In this document: positions 24,016 to 38,257 of the stretch, piece after piece | Layout of the letters: every line of letters starts with the position of its first letter | How positions within the stretch are numbered: position 1 is the first letter of the stretch | IMG/VR virus record: IMGVR_UViG_3300032224_001132 | Coordinates: 1-39,363 of that record | Direction: 5' to 3' (one strand) | Source of the DNA: a virus | Length of the DNA stretch: 39,363 bases | Translations under genes and position numbers: made by a program | The notes under the pieces: generated by a model | Told to the model about the DNA's origin: nothing | The model's database searches: none | Seen by the model: the letters and a program-made list of their open reading frames with translations, nothing else

Positions 24016-24297
24016 TTAGTCGTTTGTAAGATACTGCCATGTATCTCCCCATTGCAACTTAGTTTTATGGCGATTGAATTCTTTTGATATCTTTCCGTCT
24101 TCAAGGTATATGCCACCCCAAACGCCGTACTCTTTACCAGTAATACCAATAGCAAAACATTCTTTCTTTACAGGACACTCTGAACAGAGTTTGTCAATTG
24201 CAAGTCTTAACTCTGGTTGGTCCTCATACTTTTCAAAAAATATGTTTGTGTCATAATCCAAACATAAGGCTTCATCTTTCCACAAATGCTTATTCAA
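24016..24297 (-). CDS. whiB: WhiB-family transcription factor
   Basis: 93 residues. The four cluster-binding cysteines are at 12, 38, 41 and 47 (ALC-LDYD, LCSECPVKKEC), followed by GVWGG and a basic tail (KISKEFNRHKTK). WhiB-like proteins hold a 4Fe-4S cluster and regulate transcription with the sigma factor in actinobacteria; phage versions such as WhiBTM4 act on host septation genes. This is the main sign that the host is an actinobacterium. Overlaps neither neighbour. Its DNA-binding targets cannot be read from this window. Confidence 0.95.
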   Translation of the reverse strand: MNKHLWKDEALCLDYDTNIFFEKYEDQPELRLAIDKLCSECPVKKECFAIGITGKEYGVWGGIYLEDGKISKEFNRHKTKLQWGDTWQYLTND

Positions 24298-25858: not shown

Positions 25859-26116
25859 TTACTCCTCGTTAATAAAAGATAGAAGTTCTTCTTTTGTTTT
25901 GGCTCCAGTAGTTCTGGATACCTCTTTATTATCTCTAATTAGTACAAATGTTGGTACTGATTTTACATCAAAATCACTTACCATTTCATCTTCAATATCT
26001 GCATCAATTATAAAAAATTTTGCAATAATCTGTTCACGATTTAACTCTTCAACGATTGGTTTAACTTTTTTGCAGGGGTTGCACCAATCTGCTGTAAAGT
26101 ATAAAACACTCTTCAT
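25859..26116 (-). CDS. Thioredoxin
   Basis: 85 residues, ATGA overlap with the HNH gene. FTADWCNPCKKVKP carries the active site W11-C12-N-P-C15 (WCGPC in most thioredoxins, Asn here), and a cis-proline SVPTFVLI. Full thioredoxin fold in minimal size. Dithiol-disulfide exchange in the cytoplasm; could support ribonucleotide reduction or redox enzymes such as the oxygenases and the CDGSH protein nearby, which is inference. Confidence 0.9.
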   Translation of the reverse strand: MKSVLYFTADWCNPCKKVKPIVEELNREQIIAKFFIIDADIEDEMVSDFDVKSVPTFVLIRDNKEVSRTTGAKTKEELLSFINEE

Positions 26117-26766
26117 TTAACTAATACTACACTAAACCTTGTAGTTTTACAAGTCTTTAAGTTTTTAGTAATAAAGTCTTTTTCTATTTTATCTACAGAT
26201 AGATTCCATCTTACTTTAATGGATACCCAGTTAACTAAATATTCACAAGCATATGCTTTATTAGTTGGCATCCACTCTGCAGGATCTTGATCACTCTTAG
26301 ATCTATTAGAACCACCAGTTACTGCAATTAGGTGGCGTGGATCAACCATATCATTAGCATATTGTTGCCTCTTTAATGCATCCCATGCACTTGCTCCTGA
26401 GTCCCAGGCCTCTGCAAGTGGAACCATGTGGTCTACGTCTAAGTCTCCTGCATCAGTTACTTTTACATTGTCATAAATACTTAGCCATTCTCCGCCAATA
26501 AGTTTACATCCACTTTCAATTTTTGGCTTGACAATTGCCTCATCTATAATTACAGATTTGCGTGAGTCGCATCCTATCTGACCTGAACGGCTAATAGTAA
26601 TCCAGTGCTTGAACAGTGTACGCTTGTATCCTGTACGTACTTCATCTGCTACCTTAAGTGTATTTAAGGCTGTTGTTGCATCTTTATAGGATATTGATCC
26701 TGCTGCCTGTGCAGTTCCCCCAAGCATGGCAACACTTATAATTACTGCTGTTAATAATTTACGCAT
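26113..26766 (-). CDS. Secreted DUF1524-type HNH endonuclease
   Basis: 217 residues from ATG (complement) 26766, with GGGGGAGAAA upstream. Residues 1-22 form a signal peptide (MRKLLTAVIISVAMLGGTAQ, then Ala-Ala cleavage). The catalytic core is D-L-D-V-D112-H113-M-V-P-L-A-E-A-W-D-S-G and NDMVDPRHLIAVTGGSNRSKSDQDPAEWMP, the DUF1524/HNH pattern of secreted nucleases and GmrSD-like proteins. A nuclease exported by a phage-infected cell, or carried in the envelope, could degrade extracellular or competing DNA. Cys residues (66, 87 and later) could form a disulfide outside the cell. Confidence 0.85.
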   Translation of the reverse strand: MRKLLTAVIISVAMLGGTAQAAGSISYKDATTALNTLKVADEVRTGYKRTLFKHWITISRSGQIGCDSRKSVIIDEAIVKPKIESGCKLIGGEWLSIYDNVKVTDAGDLDVDHMVPLAEAWDSGASAWDALKRQQYANDMVDPRHLIAVTGGSNRSKSDQDPAEWMPTNKAYACEYLVNWVSIKVRWNLSVDKIEKDFITKNLKTCKTTRFSVVLVK

Positions 26767-26968
26767 TTTTTCTCCCCCATTTAACTTTATTCCACCCACG
26801 CTCATGAAAATAATAAAGTATAGTTTTAGTTAACACTTCAAAGCCTGCAATTGAAGCAGCGGTTATTGCTTTATGTGTTATAAAGTATGACAATACAAAA
26901 GTATCTGCTGTTCCAATTATACGCCATGTAATTGCTTTTAGCGCTGATCTTTGTTTAGTTACGTTCAT
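26759..26968 (-). CDS. DUF2061 membrane protein
   Basis: 69 residues, two membrane segments. S-A-L-K-A-I-T-W-R-I-I-G-T-x-D-T-F-V-L-S-Y-F-I-T-(G/H), then E-V-L-T-K-x-x-L-Y-Y-x-H-E-R-x-W, matches DUF2061 (PF09834). A second copy is at 28993, on the other side of the APS-kinase-like fusion. In bacteria DUF2061 is often found near sulfate-assimilation genes, which fits the neighbourhood but is association only. Confidence 0.85.
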   Translation of the reverse strand: MNVTKQRSALKAITWRIIGTADTFVLSYFITHKAITAASIAGFEVLTKTILYYFHERGWNKVKWGRKNA

Positions 26969-29779: not shown

Positions 29780-31204
29780 TTAGCGTGTAATTGTAAAGTT
29801 GTATGCTTTTTCCCATGCTTGAATGTCTAGTTCATCATTGAGTAATGGCTGGCCTTTAATATTAAGGCTAGTATTAAGAAGAACTGGCACCCCAGTCTGT
29901 AAGTAAAACTTATTCAAAGTCCTCCACAATCCACGGTGTTGATCTTTATTTACAGTCTGGACCCTTGATGTTCCATCTTTATGTACCACTGATGGTATTT
30001 TATCTGGCTGTAAACATTTAACTGTATACTGCATATACGGAGAATCAAAGTCCATATCAAACCACTTGTCTGCAAACTCCTCCATAACAACTGGAGCAAA
30101 TGGCCTAAAGAGTTCTCTCTGTTTAATTAAGTTAACTTTATCTTTAATATTGGGATCTCTTGGATCTGCAAGTATACTTCTATTTCCTAGTGCTCTTGGA
30201 CCATACTCTGCTCTTCCTGATGCTACTGCTACGATTCCATCTTTTAGTATGCCGTCAATTATTTTGTCAACTGGATATTCCCCGCCTAAGTCGTGACCTA
30301 AGTATGGATCTTTCCATTCAATATGTTTTCCATATAGCGCTGCTGCAGCGCCCAAAGAACTTCCAGCATCTCCTGGGTTGGGCATAATCCAAACATCACC
30401 AAAAATATTCCATAGCAGGGTGTTAGCAGAAGAGTTTAAAGCGCAACCACCCATAAAAACAAGGTTGTCTTTGCCCGTTAGATTGTACGCCATATGCATA
30501 AATTCATTCAGCCTTTGTTGATAAACGAATTGAACTGCAGCAGCAATATCAAACTTATCTTGCTCTGATTCAATCCATCCCCAATCATTAATTCCTTTAT
30601 GAAAGTTATATTTTTGTTGATCATACTTTGGAAAATAATCATCAACTTTTCTATAATATTTTTTCCAATCTCCATATGCAGCCATGCCCATCATAATATA
30701 TTCTTCTTGATTTGGCATTAAACCTATTAGTTGTGTGAAAGCAGAATAGAATAATCCAAAACTAACTGGATAGTTTTGCTTATACTTAAGCCTGATCTTG
30801 TCTCCCTCTCCCACCCAGATTGTTGAGGTATTGTATTCACCAATAGCGTCAAGAACAACTATGACCGCATCATTAAAAGGACTGGTGTAGTACCCTGCAC
30901 AAGCGTGAGAGTAGTGATGCTTAAATGATTTTCTTGGAATATTATCTATATCAAATTTTGGAAGCCAGTCACCTGAACCGCCTCTAAGAAATAGCCTTGA
31001 TCTTTTTAGTAATGGCTTTTCATAGTATGCTACATAATCTGGTTTTCCATACTGCAAAGCATCTTGAATTAAATTATCATTCACATACCAATCATTTTTC
31101 TTTTTGCTATATCGCTCAGCATGTCCTGCAAAAAGAATCTCCCCATCCTTTATTAAGGATACAGATGCATCATGTGATGTTTCATTAACTCCAAGGATTA
31201 TCAT
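29780..31204 (-). CDS. Carbamoyltransferase, NodU/CmcH family
   Basis: 474 residues. N-terminal MIILGVNETSHDASVSLIKDGEI is the NodU/CmcH opening (G-x-[HN]-x-x-H-D-x-S). Later HHYSHACAGYYTSPF (HxxHA metal site), VVLDAIGEYNTSTIW, VFMGGCALNSSAN (G-G-x-x-x-N-x-x-x-N), SGRAEYGPRALGNRSILADPR and the C-terminal RPFAPVV. These enzymes transfer carbamoyl from carbamoyl phosphate via an adenylate to a hydroxyl, e.g. on sugars. At 474 residues it is shorter than the 550-580 typical, the C-terminus ending early after NTSLNIKGQP. First gene of the modification cassette, ATGA overlap with the next gene. Confidence 0.9.
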   Translation of the reverse strand: MIILGVNETSHDASVSLIKDGEILFAGHAERYSKKKNDWYVNDNLIQDALQYGKPDYVAYYEKPLLKRSRLFLRGGSGDWLPKFDIDNIPRKSFKHHYSHACAGYYTSPFNDAVIVVLDAIGEYNTSTIWVGEGDKIRLKYKQNYPVSFGLFYSAFTQLIGLMPNQEEYIMMGMAAYGDWKKYYRKVDDYFPKYDQQKYNFHKGINDWGWIESEQDKFDIAAAVQFVYQQRLNEFMHMAYNLTGKDNLVFMGGCALNSSANTLLWNIFGDVWIMPNPGDAGSSLGAAAALYGKHIEWKDPYLGHDLGGEYPVDKIIDGILKDGIVAVASGRAEYGPRALGNRSILADPRDPNIKDKVNLIKQRELFRPFAPVVMEEFADKWFDMDFDSPYMQYTVKCLQPDKIPSVVHKDGTSRVQTVNKDQHRGLWRTLNKFYLQTGVPVLLNTSLNIKGQPLLNDELDIQAWEKAYNFTITR

Positions 31205-35580: not shown

Positions 35581-36354
35581 TTAAGAAATTGGGTTAACAA
35601 TTCCTTTTGGTGTATTAGCCGTTACCCACATTGATGCTACTGCTGCTGTTGCTGATGATGATGTCTGTGATACAGGACCAAAGGTCGTATTGTATACCCA
35701 CTTGGTACCATCCAAAGATAGTCGAGCAAAGTAATCTGTGTTGGCATCAAATCGTGAAATAGCATTTCCTTTTTCATCAGCATGTGCAACTGCTAAAGTA
35801 TTAGCAATACATCCTGGATAACTGACAGACTTGTTAGTATCATTACCTGCTGCTGCAAATACTGGAATACCATAAGACTCTAAGTCGTTAATCAGTGATC
35901 TAATTACAACATCGTCTGCAAGACGAGCCTTTGGTGTATTGACTGGTCCAAACGGAGTACATTCTAAACTAGTCTTATTAAATGTTAGTGAAATTGAAAC
36001 AGCCTTTACTTTATCTTTATTATTCTTTACCCAATTAAGAGATGAAATAAGTTGGCTTGGATATACATCAGATTGTGCACTTGATGCACAAATTGGAATA
36101 ATACTGATAGAAGGATTTTGCAATTTTGCTACAGCATACATTGCTGTTCCATGATTATACGGATCAGACGCCTTTGCGTTTGCAATTGGTTTTGATTGTG
36201 CACATGCTGCACCTGTAGATGTGATTGGATTCTGTGCAACGCTTGACTGAAAATAAGAATCAATAATTACAAGAGACTTAGTGTCTGCTGCTTGTGATTG
36301 TACTGGTACTACAACTGAAAATAATACTGCTACTAATGCTACGATCTTTTTCAT
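35581..36354 (-). CDS. Secreted subtilase-like (S8) serine protease
   Basis: 257 residues from ATG (complement) 36354, with AAAGGAA 6 nt upstream (an ATG five codons earlier has a poorer site). Residues 1-23 are a signal peptide (KKIVALVAVLFSVVVPVQSQ, Ala cleavage). Catalytic residues: Asp32 (VIIDSYF), His68 (YNHGTAM), oxyanion Asn in FAAAGND, and the Ser region QTSSSATAA (about 230-237). In canonical S8 proteases it is GTS-x-A-x-P; here the Gly and the Pro are missing, so the nucleophile is probably Ser233 or Ser232 and activity may be reduced. Exported protease of a phage-infected cell. Confidence 0.8.
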   Translation of the reverse strand: MKKIVALVAVLFSVVVPVQSQAADTKSLVIIDSYFQSSVAQNPITSTGAACAQSKPIANAKASDPYNHGTAMYAVAKLQNPSISIIPICASSAQSDVYPSQLISSLNWVKNNKDKVKAVSISLTFNKTSLECTPFGPVNTPKARLADDVVIRSLINDLESYGIPVFAAAGNDTNKSVSYPGCIANTLAVAHADEKGNAISRFDANTDYFARLSLDGTKWVYNTTFGPVSQTSSSATAAVASMWVTANTPKGIVNPIS

Positions 36355-36370
36355 TTTATTCCTTTTCATT

Positions 36371-36577
36371 TTAAGATATCATCAATCTGATGACATGCTG
36401 ACAAGGGTCTCCGCCCTCTTCCCATTCTTCTATTTCTTCTTCACCCATATAAGCATAACCGCCATCATGTGTATTGCAATAAGGTGGTGTTACCCAGCCC
36501 CGATCAATACCATTTGAAAGCCATACGCCAAACTCTTGCTCTTCTGGAGATAAATCTTCTTCGTCACTGTAGTTCAT
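36371..36577 (-). CDS. Small acidic zinc-site protein
   Basis: 68 residues: C-N-T-H-D-G-G then D-P-C-Q-H-V-I-R-L, a possible C-H-C-H metal site. Very acidic (EEDLSPEEQEFG, EEEIEEWEEGGD). I recall similar sequences in actinophages (YC-x-T-H, GGDPC-x-H). Function unknown. Confidence 0.65.
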   Translation of the reverse strand: MNYSDEEDLSPEEQEFGVWLSNGIDRGWVTPPYCNTHDGGYAYMGEEEIEEWEEGGDPCQHVIRLMIS

Positions 36578-36592
36578 ATTATAAGTATACCC

Positions 36593-37117
36593 CTACACAC
36601 TGACAATGTCAACTGGCCCCATGCATGATGGGTTAAATTTTATTGCAGCATTTACTGCTTGAAGAACTCTGCTCCTTGCATTTTTTTGTTTATCTGTTGC
36701 ATATAGAACACCGTAAGCATACTCTGCTCCTGAACCCATAGCAAGGTATGGTAATGTATATTTAGATAAAGACATGTCTACAGAACTATGCTCATATATT
36801 TGTCCACGAATTGCAATTATTAATCCAAGGTCTCCTTCTTTTGAAGTGTCCACCCAAAACTCATTATAAAATTCTCTAAGTTCTTTAATAAACTTAGTCT
36901 GCATAAATTTATCGGTATCTCTTATGTTTGGCGTAGAAGGTTTAAAGTTATATCTAATTCTTTCTCCGTCCATCGAACCAGCATAACCAATTAAGTATGG
37001 GCCAATCTTCCAAACTTTTGGGGCATCAAGTGCTAATATAGTTCCATCGTCAGAGGCGCCACGATCTCCAGCCATATAGATCTTTTCTTCATGTCTTACT
37101 ACAGCAATACAAGTCAT
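36593..37117 (-). CDS. HslV/proteasome-beta-like Ntn hydrolase
   Basis: 174 residues from ATG (complement) 37117, overlapping the upstream stop (ATGA). After removal of Met the N-terminus is Thr. In the precursor numbering Thr2, Asp18 (MAGDRGAS) and Lys34 (DAPKVWKIG) correspond to the Thr1, Asp17 and Lys33 of HslV and proteasome beta subunits. The next strands (IGYAGSMDGERI) and the LAMGSGAEYAYGVLYAT turn (G-S-G-x-x-Y-A) match the family, and the 174-residue length is that of HslV. Expected to form a self-assembling chambered peptidase; an ATPase partner (HslU) is not visible in this window. Unusual in a phage. Confidence 0.85.
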   Translation of the reverse strand: MTCIAVVRHEEKIYMAGDRGASDDGTILALDAPKVWKIGPYLIGYAGSMDGERIRYNFKPSTPNIRDTDKFMQTKFIKELREFYNEFWVDTSKEGDLGLIIAIRGQIYEHSSVDMSLSKYTLPYLAMGSGAEYAYGVLYATDKQKNARSRVLQAVNAAIKFNPSCMGPVDIVSV

Positions 37118-37905
37118 TCTGCGTGATAACCTTTCGGATATAGTGTTATTATTATTTTTTGTATTTCGTCTTCTTCTGACCAAAGCCTACTATTAGTATA
37201 CACGAATTCTAGTATCTTGTCAAAGACCCCATCAATATGGACTTCAGTGTCCATGCTAAGATTCATCTGAAAATCTGCTTCCCAATCATTACTAAAATTA
37301 TCTGATAATTCTTTTATTACCTCTTCTAAACCTTTAGATTTTAATATGATGACTGTTGGTTTATTTAATAATCTAATTTCTTCAAATGTTTTTTCTTTAT
37401 TTGATAAATGTTGAAAGTTGCCAGCAAAATAAAATGAATGAACATTTCGCTTTCCATTAACTACTGCACTTATAACTGAGTTGGGGCCAGATAAAACTTG
37501 ATAAGGAATGTTCATCTCTACAAGCATTGACTTGAATTGTGACATTGGTTCAAGAAAAACTGAAGAGCCTTCATCTGAAACAGCAAATATTTTTTTTCTA
37601 TTCTTTACATGCTCAAGTAAAACTTTTTTCATTTCATTAACATGTGATGGATCAGACTCAAGATTATATTGAAGGATAATACCCCTTGGATTAATATTGG
37701 GTCTTTCTTCAACATCAAGATAATTGATAGCATTAATTAATCTAGAGAACTGTCTATGATTTTCTACTAAAATAACATCTGCAGTTTTGATATGCTCAAT
37801 AGCAGATAAACTAATATCTGCTGGATCTCCAATTGGCAAAGCCCCAAAGACTATGCTTTTTCTGAATAAATTTTTTTGTAGCGTGTCTTGAATTTGATAG
37901 CGCAA
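37114..37905 (-). CDS. RsmI-like tetrapyrrole-methylase-family methyltransferase
   Basis: 263 residues, TTG start (complement 37905) preceded by GAGGGG. VFGALPIGDPADISLSAIEHIKTADVILVEN (19-50) and later AVSDEGSSVFLEP and LSGPNSVISAVVNG follow the RsmI/TP-methylase layout (P-I-G-[ND]-x-x-D-[IL]-[ST]-x-R/x-A-L-x-x-L-x-x-A-D-x-I-x-x-E; D-[AE]-G-[TS]). RsmI methylates ribose 2'-O of 16S rRNA C1402. The last codons overlap the HslV-like start, so the two are co-translated. The catalytic assignment is by motif only. Confidence 0.75.
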   Translation of the reverse strand: MRYQIQDTLQKNLFRKSIVFGALPIGDPADISLSAIEHIKTADVILVENHRQFSRLINAINYLDVEERPNINPRGIILQYNLESDPSHVNEMKKVLLEHVKNRKKIFAVSDEGSSVFLEPMSQFKSMLVEMNIPYQVLSGPNSVISAVVNGKRNVHSFYFAGNFQHLSNKEKTFEEIRLLNKPTVIILKSKGLEEVIKELSDNFSNDWEADFQMNLSMDTEVHIDGVFDKILEFVYTNSRLWSEEDEIQKIIITLYPKGYHAE

Positions 37906-37906
37906 G

Positions 37907-37960
37907 AAAAAGCCCCTCTAGATAGATACCTTATAAGTATACCACCCAGAGGGGTTTTTC
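37907..37960. terminator. Bidirectional terminator with a -10-like box in its loop
   Basis: CCCCTCT (37913-37919) pairs with AGAGGGG (37948-37954), flanked by AAAAA and TTTTT. The 28-nt loop contains TATACT on the minus strand. It separates the RsmI-like gene from the membrane-protein gene upstream and also provides the GAGGGG ribosome site. Confidence 0.65.
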
Positions 37961-37969
37961 AATTAATGA

Positions 37970-38257
37970 CTAATTAGCCTTTTTATCTACTGATTTAAAA
38001 GCCTCATTTATCTCTGAAAGAGATAGTTTTCCATCGTCTAAAAAAGCCCTTGCAAGCCTCTCAATAACGCTGGCTACGCCAAGTAGTCCTGCTAAGAATA
38101 CTGCCTGAACCGTATCTATTCCTACTACTGCGCCTGCTCCTAGGACTGATAGTCCTGATGCTGCAAATACCGCAAGAATTCTCATAAGTATATTTGTCAA
38201 TGCCTTCTGTGAATTTTCTTTCTTTGGTGCTTCTACTATTATTTTTTTAGTTGCCAT
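37970..38257 (-). CDS. Holin-like membrane protein with DGKLS tail
   Basis: 95 residues: a Lys-rich N-terminus (MATKKIIVEAPKKENSQK), two hydrophobic segments (about 27-45 and 50-66), and a C-terminal tail ERLARAFLDDGKLSLSEINEAFKSVDKK. This tail repeats the D-G-K-L-S-x-x-E motif of the adjacent large protein. I recall similar actinophage membrane proteins with the ERLARAFLDDGKL ending. Candidate holin or tail-associated membrane protein. Overlaps the next gene by 1 nt. Confidence 0.7.
   Translation of the reverse strand: MATKKIIVEAPKKENSQKALTNILMRILAVFAASGLSVLGAGAVVGIDTVQAVFLAGLLGVASVIERLARAFLDDGKLSLSEINEAFKSVDKKAN

Follow-up and report, generated by a model that had tools for sequence, protein, structure and literature searches.

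The window, a viral DNA stretch of 39,363 nucleotides that was analysed as a whole, contains a gene for a small protein resembling HslV and the proteasome beta subunit, and the start of this gene overlaps the end of a methyltransferase gene. The locus raises the question of what such a peptidase does in a phage, whether it works with a partner ATPase, and whether the methyltransferase belongs to its function. The features concerned are listed in Table 1.

Table 1 Features of the peptidase locus and of the window, with positions counted from the first letter of the window.
Feature	Coordinates	Strand	Remarks
WhiB-like regulator	24016..24297	-	marks the phage as an actinophage
Secreted subtilase-like protein	35581..36369	-	often the next gene downstream; no link to the mechanism
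Acidic 68-aa protein	36371..36577	-	invariant Cys34/His37/Cys59, several Trp; conserved neighbour
Promoter of the acidic ORF, TTGACA-N17-TATACT	36584..36612	-	-35 in the last peptidase codons; 6 nt between -10 and ATG
Proteasome/HslV-like Ntn threonine peptidase, 174 aa	36593..37117	-	Thr2 (nucleophile after Met removal), Asp18, Lys34, GSG 128-130
ATGA overlap of methylase stop and peptidase start	37114..37117	-	4 nt; methylase stop TGA at 37116-37114
Tetrapyrrole-methylase-family (RsmI-like) methyltransferase, 263 aa	37114..37905	-	in about 10 related contigs only
Peptidase promoter, TTGACA-N17-TATACT	37195..37223	-	perfect match; within the 3' end of the methylase gene, some 80 nt ahead of the peptidase ATG
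Ancestral peptidase leader, now before the methylase	37905..37965	-	inverted repeat arms at about 37948-37955 and 37913-37919 around TATACT
Holin-like 95-aa membrane protein	37970..38257	-	usual upstream neighbour

First, the start of the peptidase and its catalytic residues were examined. The N-terminus of the translated frame reads MTCIAVV, and an alternative TTG start would lengthen the protein to 196 aa. Because most relatives without the methylase show a GGAG-type Shine-Dalgarno sequence (GGAGAGGG or similar) at the ATG, the ATG was taken as the right start; the Thr is therefore at position 2, beside the initiator Met. The preliminary description of this DNA had equated Thr2, Asp18 and Lys34 with the Thr1-Asp17-Lys33 set, at HslV length and with a G-S-G-x-x-Y-A motif. 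All of these were indeed found in the translated frame, where the motif is GSGAEYA at residues 128-134. T2, D18 and K34 were invariant in alignments of 9, 13, 28 and 11 diverse sequences, and one alignment of homologues from phages of Vibrio, Aeromonas, Salmonella (T5-like), Psychrobacter, Tunturiibacter, Ochrobactrum and E. coli showed T2, D18, K34, G44, G128 and G130 as invariant columns. The peptidase matched phrog_1040, "peptidase HslV family", with an E value of 1.4e-21 and scored 22.8 bits with the Pfam Proteasome profile, just above the cut-off of 22.4. When a profile of the diverse phage family was compared with the PDB, BPH (beta-proteobacterial proteasome homologue) and HslV were found with E values of 3.4e-14 and 1.5e-13, respectively. 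Since these matches agree with the Ntn fold of the model described below, the identity of the protein as an HslV/proteasome-beta-like hydrolase, as originally proposed, is beyond chance. Furthermore, the median dN/dS of the gene was 0.043 (median dN 0.037, median dS 0.84) in 300 pairs drawn from 57 distinct gene copies. An intact catalytic set under such strong constraint argues for an active enzyme. Judged from its sequence and those of its relatives, the window protein is genuinely a threonine peptidase of the proteasome-like kind; it is probably active and belongs to a distinct clade of actinophage sequences.

An AlphaFold2 model of the peptidase, built on 28 aligned viral sequences, reached a pLDDT of 91 and a pTM of 0.87 and showed the alpha-beta-beta-alpha Ntn fold. 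More than 1100 PDB entries matched the model at E<=0.001, with BPH (5ovs, TM 0.80) and HslV (1m4y, TM 0.77) on top. A fold unlike that of Ntn hydrolases, which would have spoken against the assignment, was thus not seen in the comparison. The viral matches included other phage HslV-like proteins and one protein of Gordonia phage Daredevil. In the model, a helix was observed at residues 68-86, and the chain stops right after the last strand with no C-terminal helix. In their survey of 2021, Fuchs et al. named the phage proteasome homologues PPH and AAH and described a compact group I form (PMC8665760). PPH has about 140 residues and no helix H2, whereas the window protein has 174 residues and the helix at 68-86; it was therefore ruled out to be PPH. 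As modelled, the peptidase is the compact group I form.

Subsequently, the carriers of the peptidase were surveyed. Chambered peptidases had been considered rare in phages. This was wrong, because 154 annotated phage records (E<=0.01) match the family and at least 595 viral contigs carry close relatives; phage homologues had, as mentioned, already been named in 2021, and BPH is reported in a paper on a Citromicrobium phage (PMC8953757). A WhiB gene is an accepted mark of actinophages (PMC6802176) and was present in 17 of the 18 contigs of the window lineage, the window included. The window phage is therefore an actinophage. Another WhiB contig (L129) carries a peptidase of 34% identity in its replication region, and this peptidase falls in the same clade. 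The actinophage sequences formed a clade of their own with 100/96 support, on a long branch apart from the bacterial relatives, which come from Dactylosporangium, Mesorhizobium, Bacillota, Spongiibacter and Chloroflexia. The nearest bacterial relatives fit the range of AAH, but the actinophage clade is separate from them. In the survey, AAH was found in no Actinobacteria-specific phage (PMC8665760). The enzyme itself is of a known kind, and what is new here concerns its phage carrier, its clade, and the conserved control region and acidic protein described below.

On the host side, a full match to the peptidase among 397 Actinomycetota genomes was obtained only for the Dactylosporangium seed. 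The family profile also gave four weak matches in Actinomycetota. These were short N-terminal matches in longer frames, and one of them (G141) falls in the 20S beta gene of the genome itself; none was therefore counted as AAH. Scanning of genome contigs with the peptidase as a host search found no relative, and a scan with the homologue of Vibrio phage phiTY18 gave no match. The Dactylosporangium peptidase (L133:6001-6513) was 54% identical to that of Moorella phage MTATph1 (OR602862), and this identity suggests that AAH may have spread into Actinobacteria by way of phages.

We also looked for an ATPase that could serve as the partner. No HslU had been visible in the window, and the profile search proposed at that time was carried out. 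HslU over the cut-off was found in none of 26 phage records (18 lineage contigs, several of them fragments, and 8 other HslV phages), and among the phages searched the AAA_2 domain was detected only in PBECO4. The actinophage contigs, which comprise several fragments and include five of 109-119 kb, contained no convincing proteasome-type AAA; the matches were short and of the Walker type, one of them, in the contig of L129, being just over the cut-off. The peptidase might instead work with a host ATPase, either HslU or the ATPase of the Pup-proteasome (Mpa/ARC). For the latter, 20S proteasome beta subunits were indeed over the cut-off in 55 of the 120 Actinomycetota genomes sampled. In contrast, only 1 of 297 Actinomycetota genomes had an HslU above the cut-off, which makes the use of host HslU unlikely, and the end of the modelled chain, with no extra helix after the last strand, may also count against a host ATPase. 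We therefore regard this explanation as an unlikely one. Most likely, the peptidase acts by itself or together with some general factor of the host.

The methyltransferase had been described as RsmI-like and as a partner whose presence could mark a takeover of translation. With the Pfam profile PF00590 it scored 50.5 bits (cut-off 27.8), and RsmI is the nearest named subfamily; the assignment to the tetrapyrrole-methylase family thus stands. With the RsmI equivalog TIGR00096, however, it scored 48.2 bits, far under the cut-off of 167.9, and it cannot be called RsmI itself. The 4-nt overlap with the peptidase start was confirmed, and in the window lineage it implies translational coupling, as would be expected if the two proteins were a functional pair. 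Against this, the methylase is adjacent to the peptidase in about 10 contigs, compared with at least 595 that carry the peptidase, and the peptidase has a separate promoter inside the methylase gene. Moreover, the stretch of 61 bases ahead of the methylase can be aligned with the leader directly preceding the peptidase in the other relatives (score 29.5 against L016; shuffled maximum 14.5). On the basis of this alignment, the methylase is best described as a late insertion between the peptidase gene and its ancestral leader in a small sub-lineage, that is, as inserted cargo. A joint takeover of translation is consequently very improbable; the methylase is probably not a partner of the peptidase, and the pairing is incidental.

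The leader and promoter of the peptidase gene were then compared among relatives. With the pattern TTGACA-N17/18-TATACT and one mismatch allowed, a sigma70-type promoter was found in the 110 nt ahead of the gene at 71 of 73 loci, versus 2.6% of random stretches. Ahead of the acidic ORF, a second promoter was present at 67 of 75 loci, and its -35 TTGACA lies within conserved C-terminal codons of the peptidase (L002-L081). With its ATG so close to the -10, the acidic ORF would have a leaderless layout. In most relatives, the upstream promoter lies inside a long inverted repeat whose 3' arm holds the Shine-Dalgarno sequence; the leaders of some relatives are without a strong repeat. In 38 distinct leaders, 86.5% of cells were paired versus 40-52% when the partner was slid, and 7 pairs were changed on both sides. 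The repeat was also considered as a terminator, and this was rejected because it contains the -35/-10 pair and, in the 3' arm, the Shine-Dalgarno sequence. In the T4 genes e and 49, the ribosome-binding site is hidden in read-through transcripts. By analogy, the simplest reading would be that read-through transcripts hide the ribosome-binding site of the peptidase and transcripts from the internal promoter expose it, so that the protein would be made mainly from its own promoter.

A 119-kb relative contained 8 perfect promoters versus 0.25 expected. Most of them were in the small-ORF region, with two at the peptidase/acidic pair, and the structural modules were almost free of them. At 58-74 kb of this relative (L153-L158), a minus-strand run of consensus promoters was observed; in several of them the -10 is followed by an ATG at a distance of about 6-7 nt, as would be expected if many early phage mRNAs were leaderless. 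The type and distribution of the promoters suggest that the peptidase may be expressed early and by the host polymerase.

This result bears on another explanation, in which the peptidase acts late in infection on virion or lysis proteins, which it would process in concert with the tail-fibre, holin and endolysin genes nearby. The position of the gene would suit such a role: in 80 relatives it mostly lies just after a gene for a tail-fibre-like protein and genes for small holin-like membrane proteins, and in most of them a CHAP endolysin gene is located a few kb beyond. However, its own consensus promoter is of the type that is concentrated in the region of small ORFs and seldom seen in structural modules, and homologues elsewhere are located in replication or nucleotide-metabolism regions. 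The processing of virion proteins, which had been suggested initially, is thus disfavoured by the early-type promoter, and late processing as a whole appears somewhat unlikely. The nucleotide-metabolism context was seen in T5-like and Vibrio phages, and the role of the peptidase may therefore differ between phages. In two Vibrio phage homologues (L092:8001-8984 and L093:8001-8867), the Ntn domain is followed by a C-terminal extension of roughly 110-150 aa, and in Aeromonas phage 2L372X the gene next to the homologue is likewise annotated "peptidase HslV family".

Downstream of the peptidase, at a distance of 15 nt, an acidic protein of 60-73 aa was found in about 67 of 80 relatives, with Cys34, His37 and Cys59 invariant. 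It had no match in annotated phages, none over the cut-off in Pfam or NCBIfam, and none in 297 Actinomycetota genomes in a search run without a positive control; its model was poor (pLDDT 68). Because of the missing database match and the poor model, no function is claimed for it. It may be a substrate, an adaptor or an inhibitor of the peptidase. In a more far-reaching proposal, the two genes would form a self-contained early actinophage proteolysis module, in which a peptidase controlled by a promoter within a hairpin is combined with a dedicated acidic Cys/His adaptor or inhibitor that replaces the ATPase and selects host regulators for destruction; we consider this distinctly unlikely. The subtilase-like gene follows in many relatives, and other cargo fills its position in the remainder.

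Taken together, we propose, with a probability of about 0.5, that the window protein is an actinobacteriophage group I (HslV/BPH/AAH-type) N-terminal threonine peptidase that is stand-alone, probably early and ATP-independent. Homology, fold, catalytic residues, purifying selection, the promoter of its own and the lack of an unfoldase in the actinophage contigs searched are directly supported. Removal of Met from a Met-Thr start by methionine aminopeptidase is expected, and the host enzyme would thus remove Met1 and expose Thr1. The subunits would assemble into a ring that encloses a chamber, as those of BPH and HslV do. Made early, as the host-sigma70-type promoter suggests, the peptidase would cleave unfolded or loosely folded polypeptides without an ATPase of its own, or with the help of a chaperone or ATPase from the host; the acidic neighbour would act in one of the three ways named above, and the methylase would be cargo. 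The conserved catalytic residues are compatible also with a non-degradative Ntn activity, such as the ligation carried out by connectase, which shows that proteasome homologues can be ligases (PMC8665760). On this precedent, and given that no unfoldase was found, the protein could be a ligase of peptides or proteins, or some other Ntn enzyme with a specific, non-degradative activity, acting as a monomer or small oligomer. Its closest folds, however, are BPH and HslV, which form double rings (PMC8665760), and the model has no connectase-like helical insertion between strands 3 and 4, so that we find a ligase improbable.

Among the known systems, the stand-alone peptidase proposed here is like AAH in its compact group I subunit, the Thr after Met, the missing C-terminal helix 5 and the missing AAA+ partner, and the bacterial relatives from Dactylosporangium, Mesorhizobium, Bacillota and Chloroflexia also fit the AAH range; the identity is only about 30%, however, and the actinophage clade is separate. 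The proteins of phrog_1040 from phages (T5-like, Vibrio, Aeromonas, PBECO4) belong to the same family by profile and have the same catalytic set, but the identity is 24-33%, some members have C-terminal extensions and the genomic context is different. BPH (5ovs, 5ovu), the best fold match, works without a known unfoldase (PMC8665760), whereas it is 16-22% identical and about 10 residues longer. HslV of HslVU shares the length, the fold and the catalytic triad, but the peptidase scored only 20.8 bits with the HslV equivalog (NCBIfam TIGR03692, cut-off 157.75) and no HslU was found in the window phage. The "ATP-dependent protease subunit HslV" of Dishui Lake phage DSL-LC01 (OQ999401), annotated in the record and absent from the main text of the paper, is likewise a proteasome-like gene in an Actinomycetia phage and adjoins whiB, but it is about 29% identical, has 229 aa and another neighbourhood, and is distant in the tree.

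In the literature consulted, no experimentally established function was found for any member of the phage proteasome-homologue family. The clade described here is abundant in phages of actinobacteria, a group for which the survey of 2021 listed no AAH; its catalytic residues are intact, and the purifying selection on it is strong. With this one small gene, the role of a proteasome relative that has no ATPase could be studied, and the gene is tied to specific regulatory elements and to a candidate partner protein, both of which are testable. Elsewhere in the window, a protein with a GmrSD restriction endonuclease C-terminal domain is encoded at 26113-26805 (-), and a Nol-like carbamoyltransferase at 29780-31204 (-) lies among glycosyltransferase and 2OG-oxygenase genes.
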